A DNA stretch of 64,000 nt from a virus, in the IMG/VR virus record IMGVR_UViG_3300025012_000046, positions 1 through 64,000 of that record, one strand, 5' to 3'. Positions 2,467 to 57,169 of the stretch are shown here, piece after piece. Under the pieces are notes generated by a model. That model had not been told where the DNA came from. It worked only from the letters and a program-made list of their open reading frames with translations, and ran no database searches. Positions within the stretch are counted from its first letter, which is position 1. Every line of letters starts with the position of its first letter. The translations under genes were made by a program, and so were the position numbers.

Positions 2467-2788
2467 CACTAAAAAGGACGGTATATTGTCCAGTATAATT
2501 CTAATCGGCATGTCAGAGGCTCTAGTAGAATTAGTCAAAACAAAAAGAACGCCTGACGGGTTGGTATGTGACGTTAAATTACTGGTAGAGGGTGACGAGG
2601 TTGATTTGCAACCTTTCCTTGACCACTGGCAAAGCCAAGTTAAACGGCTGATAACAAAACAGGCCAGAGAACTGGCGTATGAACAGTTTTACGGGAAGTT
2701 TAACGACGTAATAGATATGCTTGAAGACTTACAAGGCCGAGTAAGTAAAGAGGTAGATAAAAGGCTTGAAGATTGGGAAAGGAGATAA
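2444..2788 (+). CDS. Hypothetical protein, 114 aa
   Basis: ATG 2444 is preceded by a GAGGGGG site within the upstream gene. The N-terminal half is beta-prone; the C-terminal 60 residues form a charged helix with heptad spacing (DMLEDLQGRVSKEVDKRLED). No family is recognised. Confidence 0.55.
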   Translation: MQINLTHDTKKDGILSSIILIGMSEALVELVKTKRTPDGLVCDVKLLVEGDEVDLQPFLDHWQSQVKRLITKQARELAYEQFYGKFNDVIDMLEDLQGRVSKEVDKRLEDWERR

Positions 2789-2789
2789 C

Positions 2790-3176
2790 ATGACACCAAC
2801 ATGTCCAGCCTGCAAGCGATATATAGGCCTTCACAATAAGCAAGGAGAGCTAGTCGGCACAGAACTACACTACGTTAGGAAGGAGGATCAAGCTAAGCAC
2901 TTAGCTGATTTAATGTGGAGGATTGAAACTGGGTATAGCTGCAATAAAACTAGGAGGGGAAATATGAAAGTTAAAGTCAAAACAGCAGAAGAGGCGTTTA
3001 AACCATTCACAGTTGAGATTACTTTTGAAACAGAAAAAGACCTTAGCGAATACATTAAGATGCACAACTCTTACCACGATAACGCACACTACGATTGTAT
3101 ATACCATGACGATAAGCTGAAATTTTCTAACAACATACTAGCCCAAGCCATAAAATTCAGAAAGGACGCTAACTAA
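2790..3176 (+). CDS. Zinc-knuckle protein fused to an FTPF-family domain, 128 aa
   Basis: ATG 2790 has an AAAGGAG site. Residues 1-57 begin with TCPACKRYIG (one CxxC) and include the AKHLA segment encoded by a palindromic repeat copy. From residue 59 the protein matches the next gene and the gene at 3931 (pattern V-K-x-x-E-x-x-F-x-PF-x-V-x-(L/I)-x-F/I-E-T). An internal ATG at 2964 has its own AGGAGGGG site, so the second domain is probably also made alone. It looks like two neighbouring genes merged in frame. Confidence 0.55.
   Translation: MTPTCPACKRYIGLHNKQGELVGTELHYVRKEDQAKHLADLMWRIETGYSCNKTRRGNMKVKVKTAEEAFKPFTVEITFETEKDLSEYIKMHNSYHDNAHYDCIYHDDKLKFSNNILAQAIKFRKDAN
2891..2906 (+). repeat. 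Palindromic repeat copy inside a coding region
   Basis: AGCTAAGCACTTAGCT is a 7-bp dyad with a 2-base centre. Here it is read in frame as AKHLA within the gene at 2790, and an identical sequence lies at 7618. Confidence 0.6.
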
Positions 3177-3400
3177 TGGAAATCACAGTAAGGAAAATCG
3201 AAGAGAAAACTTTTACTCCGTTTGAGGTTGTGCTTAGGTTCACCACGCAGGAAGAGGTAAAAGATTTTTTAAGGGATCATGACGATCAAGTAACAAACCA
3301 TAATGATTTACTACTTAGTAGCAACATAGAAGAGTATTCTGAACTAGATGCACCACACAACCAAATAGCACAAGCTGTCAAATTCGGAGGCAACTCATGA
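3176..3400 (+). CDS. FTPF-family hypothetical protein, 74 aa
   Basis: Starts on the last base of the preceding stop. It is a paralogue of the C-terminal domain at 2964-3176 and of the gene at 3931: a basic N-terminal strand, the FTPFEVVL block, an acidic helix, and a C-terminal N-x-I-A-Q-A-x-K-F motif shared with the upstream copy. The tandem paralogues indicate local duplication. Function unknown. Confidence 0.6.
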   Translation: MEITVRKIEEKTFTPFEVVLRFTTQEEVKDFLRDHDDQVTNHNDLLLSSNIEEYSELDAPHNQIAQAVKFGGNS

Positions 3401-3930: not shown

Positions 3931-4182
3931 ATGAAAGTCAAAAAGGAATCTGTAGAGGAATTTACACCGTTTAATTTGGTTCTCACCATAGAGACAAAGG
4001 CAGAGGCATCTGCTCTGTATAACATTTTCAACTACACATTTAATACCGATCTTTTGCCTTCTACGTGGTACAACGAAATACAAGAGGCGATAGGCTCTGA
4101 AAACCAATACACGGATCGTGAGAACAGAATTATAGCTGGAACAACAGCTTACAGCGATTTTTACAAGCCTAAAGTGGAATGA
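3931..4182 (+). CDS. FTPF-family hypothetical protein, 83 aa
   Basis: Third member of the local paralogue set: a basic start, then EFTPFNLVLTIETK, then a helix. It is the last gene before the non-coding RNA region, and its TGA stop lies ten bases upstream of the TTGACA box of that promoter. Confidence 0.6.
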   Translation: MKVKKESVEEFTPFNLVLTIETKAEASALYNIFNYTFNTDLLPSTWYNEIQEAIGSENQYTDRENRIIAGTTAYSDFYKPKVE

Positions 4183-4192
4183 AAGAATTGTC

Positions 4193-4221
4193 TTGACATT
4201 TTCTACGGAATATGATATAAT
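4193..4221 (+). promoter_or_regulatory. Sigma-70 consensus promoter of the ncRNA
   Basis: TTGACA at 4193-4198 and TATAAT at 4216-4221 with exactly 17 bases between. Transcription would start near 4228. Unlike the other consensus promoters of the window it lacks the GCGCCAT initial sequence and the GAGGTCT site, and no start codon with a Shine-Dalgarno sequence follows for more than 300 bases. Confidence 0.85.
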
Positions 4222-4227
4222 CAAATC

Positions 4228-4447
4228 TCTTTTCAGGATTAACTGAAAATTACTTGAGGTTCTACCTCATATTAACTCTTAAGGGTTAGCTTTAAGGGAA
4301 GAACTTTACCTCTCTTATCTCCTCTGCTTCATTTCCGAACCTATGCTTCCTTCAACTCCTACCTATCTCACATTTTGTGCGACCGAAGGAGCATAGGTTT
4401 TGCAAAAGGCGACAGCCATATCCCCCGAATAAACGGGCATGGCTTTT
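4228..4447 (+). ncRNA. Structured non-coding RNA candidate, about 220 nt
   Basis: The stretch 4183-4559 has no credible gene. From the predicted start to the terminator it can fold into several hairpins: a 5-bp TGAGG/CCTCA hairpin near 4255, a TAAC/GTTA hairpin near 4275, a 13-bp stem with one bulge pairing 4340-4353 with 4385-4397, and the terminator hairpin. The 30-base loop of the long stem is pyrimidine-rich. I cannot match it to a known family (6S, tmRNA, group I intron); a phage regulatory or decoy RNA is an inference. Confidence 0.6.
4414..4447 (+). terminator. Intrinsic terminator of the ncRNA
   Basis: AGCCAT (4414-4419) pairs with ATGGCT (4439-4444), and CCCG (4424-4427) with CGGG (4434-4437), followed by TTTT. 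The T-tract is short, so termination may be partial, letting some transcription run into the downstream genes. Confidence 0.6.
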
Positions 4448-4524
4448 CGCTACACCTTTCAATTTCATGTCTCACTTGAGGTCATATCTTAAATCTTGTA
4501 GCATGGTTTTAACGTAGTGGCGGT

Positions 4525-4540
4525 AGCTAATTACTTAACT
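4525..4540 (+). repeat. Intercistronic palindromic repeat, copy 2
   Basis: AGCTAATTACTTAACT, one mismatch from a perfect 6-bp dyad. It lies immediately upstream of the GAAGGAGG site of the gene at 4560. Confidence 0.65.
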
Positions 4541-4559
4541 GAAGAAGGAGGCACAGCAT

Positions 4560-4721
4560 ATGAAAGATTTTGCTGTAGATATGCTTATACAAAGCCTAGA
4601 CAAGCTGGATACTTTGGCAGATAAACTTCGAATGATCTACATGTGGATTAAGCAGGGAACGGTAAATAAACGCAGGTTCATCCTGTTGGTAACTCATATT
4701 ACGAAAGGAACTACACCATGA
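4560..4721 (+). CDS. Hypothetical protein, 53 aa
   Basis: Good GGAGG site after a palindromic repeat. Predicted helical, with a basic patch (KQGTVNKRRF). Its stop overlaps the next start (ATGA). Family not recognised. Confidence 0.55.
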   Translation: MKDFAVDMLIQSLDKLDTLADKLRMIYMWIKQGTVNKRRFILLVTHITKGTTP

Positions 4722-4864: not shown

Positions 4865-4878
4865 CTAATTACTTAGCT
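4863..4878 (+). repeat. Intercistronic palindromic repeat, copy 3
   Basis: AGCTAATTACTTAGCT is a perfect 6-bp dyad that overlaps the stop codon of the gene at 4718 and is followed by GAGAAAGGA. Confidence 0.75.
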
Positions 4879-4895
4879 GAGAAAGGAAAACAAAA

Positions 4896-5034
4896 ATGAC
4901 TAACGTATGGCGGAATCTCCGATTTTCGTAGGCATGAAGTTGTGACCAGAGAACGCATCTGTTCTGACTCAGAATACACACAAGCAAAAGAGAATATGAT
5001 AGTAAAAGGCTACCTTGACAAGAGGGTGCGATAA
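4896..5034 (+). pseudogene. Frameshifted small gene (about 45 codons)
   Basis: ATG 4896 has a ribosome binding site but the frame closes after 11 codons. From about 4904 the +1 frame is open to TAA 5032-5034 and reads YGGISDFRRHEVVTRERI and so on, which looks like real protein. A one-base insertion near 4903-4906 explains both. The 68 bases that follow contain no gene. Confidence 0.5.
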
Positions 5035-5102
5035 CGCCTAGGGGAAGAAATGCGGCAGGTAATTTAGGGCTGAATTCACTTAAATAGAGATGGAGGGTTA
5101 AC

Positions 5103-5351
5103 ATGAGCATTTCAGTAATCTACCACGTATCTGTTAAGATGCCGGATGATACACCGTATAAATCTGCAAAATACGAACAGGCTGTTGGAGAGATAGTAAA
5201 AGATGCGCTATCATCTGGACAAAACAGCTACTCAGAAATAGAAGAGTGGGCTGAGTTTCATTCTAGGCGTGAGGCTGAAGTGTGTGAGTACCAGCTTAAG
5301 AAACTGGCTGAAGCGATAGAAAGGGGTGAATTCGATGAGCATGATTACTGA
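5103..5351 (+). CDS. Hypothetical protein, 82 aa
   Basis: GGAGGG lies upstream of ATG 5103. A beta strand at the N-terminus is followed by long charged helices ending in EFDEHDY. No known family. Confidence 0.55.
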   Translation: MSISVIYHVSVKMPDDTPYKSAKYEQAVGEIVKDALSSGQNSYSEIEEWAEFHSRREAEVCEYQLKKLAEAIERGEFDEHDY

Positions 5352-42933: not shown

Positions 42934-42961
42934 GGGAGGGTGTAAAAGCCCTCCCTTCTTT
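42934..42961 (+). terminator. Intrinsic terminator after the candidate SSB gene
   Basis: AGGGAGGG (42934-42941) pairs with CCCTCCCT (42950-42957), loop TGTAAAAG, then TTCTTTAT. Strong stem of eight pairs. Confidence 0.8.
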
Positions 42962-57134: not shown

Positions 57135-57169
57135 AGCCGCTATAGACTGGAGGTAGGTCTATAGCGGCT
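57135..57169. terminator. Bidirectional hairpin terminator between convergent operons
   Basis: AGCCGCTATAGAC (57135-57147) pairs perfectly with GTCTATAGCGGCT (57157-57169), 13 bp. On the minus strand a T-rich run (CTTTTTATTTG) follows, so it ends minus-strand transcription well; on the plus strand the T-tract is weak. Confidence 0.85.

Follow-up and report, generated by a model that had tools for sequence, protein, structure and literature searches.

Analysis of the window (the whole stretch of 64,000 nucleotides under study, taken from a viral record of 99,505 bases) leads us to propose, with moderate confidence, that an untranslated structured RNA occupies the place of the first gene in an early operon: this RNA would be a leader co-transcribed with gene 4560 and the genes that follow it, perhaps with partial termination before the first of them. 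The locus, all elements of which lie on the + strand, is characterized by a perfect promoter sequence, the lack of any credible gene behind it, a fold more stable than those of shuffled sequences, a terminator candidate with a weak score, and the absence of any promoter-like site closer to the downstream genes.

Genes were predicted with our own simple caller, which finds 187 of them in the record and leaves 5,715 of the 99,505 bases non-coding. According to these calls, the 377-nt gap at 4183-4559 is the longest gene-free interval in the record; the sequence-only reading had called it the longest such interval in a region of overlapping genes, and by these calls it is the longest across all 99.5 kb. 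With a start site inferred from the position of the promoter, 332 nt of the gap (4228-4559) would form an untranslated leader. Two small ORFs are present inside the gap, one with a GTG start at 4377 (46 aa) and one with a TTG start at 4375 (34 aa), and by eye neither start is preceded by an SD sequence. The five open stop-to-stop segments of the gap exhibit only weak matches to known families (best E 0.083 in PHROGs and 0.092 in Pfam). The earlier statement that no credible gene follows the promoter is therefore upheld for the full 332 nt. Another gap in the vicinity, 4865-5102, ranks third in length among the gene-free intervals of the left 57 kb. Inspection by eye shows an SD and an ATG at 4897 with an early in-frame stop, and a 30-aa ORF begins at 4942; this may be a small gene that is broken or frameshifted. 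Upstream of the locus, the small proteins encoded at 2766-3176, 3176-3400 and 3931-4182 have N-terminal halves that look alike by eye (FTPF-type motif). Farther downstream, a 176-aa protein (10581-11111) shows 36.8% similarity to a protein of a Citromicrobium phage that carries the annotation antirestriction protein; Pfam yields no match for it at E 0.001.

The promoter at 4193-4221 is of the sigma-70 type (TTGACA-17-TATAAT with the TGn extension) and matches the consensus at 12 of 12 positions. The window has seven perfect TGn-extended promoters (at 4193, 15092, 22641, 26563, 39035, 41763 and 49975), each on the + strand, as compared to none in 100 shuffles, while the 35.5 kb of the record outside the window contain no further 12/12 site. 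Hence, the perfect match reported earlier is confirmed and lies beyond chance, but it is not special to 4193: seven copies imply a promoter family of the phage rather than the mark of an RNA gene. This family is presumably early. Its members share a leader cassette, TATAATGCGCCATCTTTTAA...TTGAGGTCT...ATG, and in the alignment of all seven promoters the common part ends at its 3' side with GAGGT; at 4193 the cassette is retained through GAGGT, but no start codon comes after it. At six of the seven promoters the distance between presumed start site and gene is 24-37 nt; only at 4193 is it 332 nt. Among five other viral records, two (G001 and G005) possess three perfect promoters each and the remaining three have none; all six leaders in the former are short (10, 15, 16, 25 and 58 nt as measured by a script, the sixth as read by eye). 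A different repeated sequence, CTACTATATTTATATACACAAAAG, is found in the structural-gene half of the record, outside the window, at record positions 67725, 77258, 90535 and 95751 (L011, L012), at some copies followed by AGCAAAAATTATTAATTTTTA, and is possibly a late-promoter family.

The predicted folding energy of 4228-4455 is -65.4 kcal/mol (z -4.74), with none of 200 shuffles equally stable, and the locus ranks third among 453 segments of 220 nt scanned on the + strand with 12 shuffles each. The predicted structure begins with three small hairpins (4230-4249, 4255-4269 and 4273-4288), in the second of which the GAGGT of the shared cassette is paired with ACCTC. The second and third of these hairpins are taken from the centroid and from the fold of the whole leader, whereas the minimum-energy fold pairs this region otherwise. 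They are followed by a pyrimidine-rich stretch, largely unpaired in the short fold (4302-4336), and by a long hairpin (4337-4400), whose arms 4337-4353 and 4385-4400 are predicted to form 16 pairs, including one G-U, with one bulged U. The bulged stem of the sequence-only reading is thus recovered, and its length is corrected from 13 bp to 16 pairs. Taken together, sequence and folding give good support to a strong promoter followed by an RNA that is structured and untranslated.

This RNA had been proposed to be independently transcribed and to end at a terminator hairpin. A GC hairpin with a TTTT tract is indeed predicted at 4408-4451 (hairpin and tract at 4414-4447), but it is a weak terminator candidate rather than a clear terminator. 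The hairpin near 4447 is absent from the list produced by a terminator scan by consensus, and the last T of its tract is paired within a longer stem in the predicted fold. By a d'Aubenton-type score it reaches -7.2 and ranks 7 among the 113 candidates of all hairpin lengths in the record, in contrast to scores of +27.4 at 42956, +26.8 at 82527 (- strand) and +14.4 at 57169. On the + strand, the consensus scan finds nothing promoter-like from 4222 up to gene 4560, and the next site, at 5186, matches at 9 of 12 positions; transcription of gene 4560 and its neighbors would therefore come from 4193, past the weak terminator hairpin, or from farther upstream. The poor terminator, together with the lack of a promoter-like site that the downstream genes could call their own, weakens the case for independent transcription and favors a leader over an independent RNA, without proving it.

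From these observations we infer transcription, an early promoter, read-through and action in cis. Host RNA polymerase would initiate at about 4228 and make the 332-nt leader, the weak terminator hairpin would mostly be read through, so that gene 4560 and the small genes following it are transcribed as well, and the leader would probably act in cis on the expression or stability of the operon. Some transcripts may end near 4447 and thereby give rise to a short RNA. Against the leader, promoters located upstream of 4193 could supply gene 4560 without it.

The short product may, alternatively, be the whole story: an independent small RNA, about 220 nt long and ending near 4447, that acts in trans and pairs with phage or host RNA by means of its pyrimidine-rich stretch. 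We regard this as possible, though doubtful. The strong promoter, the lack of a gene, the stable fold and the rank of the terminator-like hairpin in the record agree with it, while the negative score of that hairpin and its omission by the scan argue against it, as do the results for potential targets and known RNA families. When 4228-4447 was paired with the 187 phage start regions, the mean energy was -21.98 kcal/mol versus -22.01 kcal/mol for shuffled RNA, the mean of 52 in 100 shuffles being as low as the native one or lower, and the energy of the best single pairing (gene 19638) was attained by the strongest pairing of 17 in 100 shuffles. A general anti-SD effect on the start regions of the phage was rejected, since the pairing is no better than that of shuffled RNA. 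None of the 4227 Rfam families matches the window at the gathering cut-off, and a relaxed threshold yields only two matches, far below the cut-off, so the Rfam search suggested in the sequence-only reading returned nothing useful. A role as decoy or sponge, also suggested there, finds no support, given no pairing excess at phage start regions, no Rfam match and no homologue found; what speaks for it is the existence of phage small RNAs in general. Such RNAs include DicF, the c4 RNA of P1/P7, CfrI of cyanophage S-PM2 and SprY, of which c4 RNA targets a phage mRNA and SprY is sponge-like, as described in passages of PMC12197685. Like these, the RNA presented here would be phage-encoded and untranslated; unlike them, it lacks a target above chance among the phage start regions, a clear terminator and an Rfam match.

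Searches for relatives of the locus were carried out at the level of DNA, pattern and protein. Neither DNA similarity searches of phages and plasmids nor a search of viral contigs with the longer stem pattern gave a match. A 17-base pattern retrieved five loci from viral contigs (L002-L006), which are mutually near-identical around the pattern, are unlike our locus and give an empty BLAST result against the window; they were rejected, as was the sole contig with the promoter-and-leader pattern (L103), for which neither blastn nor tblastx detects similarity to the record. Protein searches of viral contigs with the neighbors 3931-4179 and 6475-7023, and with the polymerase alone, identified no relative. 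In the polymerase alignments, which covered viral contigs and genome contigs, four metagenomic viral records (L013-L016) reach 43-49% in the best segment, and the others are distant relatives only. Two of these four each contain a single 14-base match to the DNA of the locus, with E 0.31 and 0.41; we take these matches as chance, and none of the four holds a convincing counterpart. Compared with named phages, the polymerase exhibits 27.9-28.7% identity among the 30 matches listed of 3,128, the best being to T5-like phages and others. Judged by sequence, the phage is far from named phages. Pseudomonas phage Dolphis possesses a relative of gene 7403-8005, but by eye its local gene order is different, and it was set aside. 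Thus, no homologue of the RNA was found in the searched phages, plasmids and viral contigs; very near records may lie outside their coverage, and the absence of relatives is therefore weak evidence. In the literature, we recognized no paper dealing with the RNA of 4228-4447.

The retained cassette also raises the alternative of a decayed first gene, in which GAGGT was left behind, the start codon and reading frame were lost, and the fold is incidental. The conservation of the cassette with six promoters that have a gene at the same place is in line with such decay, and so is the presence of ACTTGAGGT at both 4252 and 4474. Nevertheless, the best family match of the open segments is the E 0.083 mentioned above and the fold is among the strongest on the + strand, and we consider decay unlikely.

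Returning to the leader, its arrangement resembles that of structured 5' leaders and attenuators in bacterial and phage operons, where a promoter, a folded leader and a weak terminator-like hairpin precede the first gene: here the promoter, the predicted fold and the weak terminator-like hairpin are likewise followed by gene 4560. In the put antiterminator RNA of phage HK022, hairpins are located immediately behind an early promoter. The hairpins predicted here lie directly 3' of a presumed early promoter, a likeness in position only. Gene 4560 (4560-4721) encodes a protein of 53 aa without a family match. When the whole leader is folded, 4319-4330 of the pyrimidine-rich stretch is predicted to pair with the SD region of this gene, and the cost of opening that region is the seventh-highest of 184 genes. 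This occlusion does not exceed chance: 48 of 120 shuffles of 4228-4447 occlude the SD equally, so it is explained by composition, and no specific cis mechanism is therefore established. In this respect the stretch differs from known leaders and attenuators, as no ligand, leader peptide or switching structure has been demonstrated for it.

A further observation concerns the long hairpin. Of the 13 positions of its 5' arm at 4341-4353, 12 are complementary to 4544-4556, where gene 4560 has its start region; 11 of 300 shuffles attain such a match, and among the 187 genes gene 4560 ranks third for complementarity to the 5' arm and sixth for similarity to the 3' arm. The native long stem, at -22.8 kcal/mol, is predicted to be stabler than the alternative pairing with gene 4560, at -17.6 kcal/mol. 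The results on such a switch are mixed, and it is quite improbable that the locus represents a new class of phage riboregulator in the first-gene slot of an early operon, in which the 5' arm 4341-4353 would switch between its own 3' arm and the start of gene 4560 in cis, and an RNA shortened near 4447 would in addition act in trans.

Just 5' of the SD of gene 4560, a pattern search detected a dyad, AGCTAA-N4-TTAGCT, with one mismatch (4525-4540). With a variable center and at most one mismatch, the dyad has 14 matches in the window versus 0.53 expected. Six of them (16 nt each) are located within non-coding gaps of the left 12 kb or at the borders of such gaps (1501, 4525, 4863, 5982, 9262 and 11106), four of these six directly 5' of an SD; past 12 kb, no non-coding match was found at up to two mismatches. 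The other eight matches are intragenic and in one frame, where by eye the codons specify A-K-x-L-A-like peptides, and they may reflect codon usage. The gap dyad may be an operator or an RNA hairpin. That the stretch is a DNA-level element, e.g. a protein-binding or replication site, is very unlikely: it is the longest gap of the record and contains one of the copies of the dyad repeated in the left arm, but the dyad fails to explain 4183-4559 because it is also present at five other gene junctions, and a perfect promoter is directed into the stretch.

If the structured leader is real, a tightly packed early region would give its longest gene-free interval, behind one of the best promoters, to an untranslated RNA, and the locus would be a clean candidate for control of early phage genes at the RNA level.
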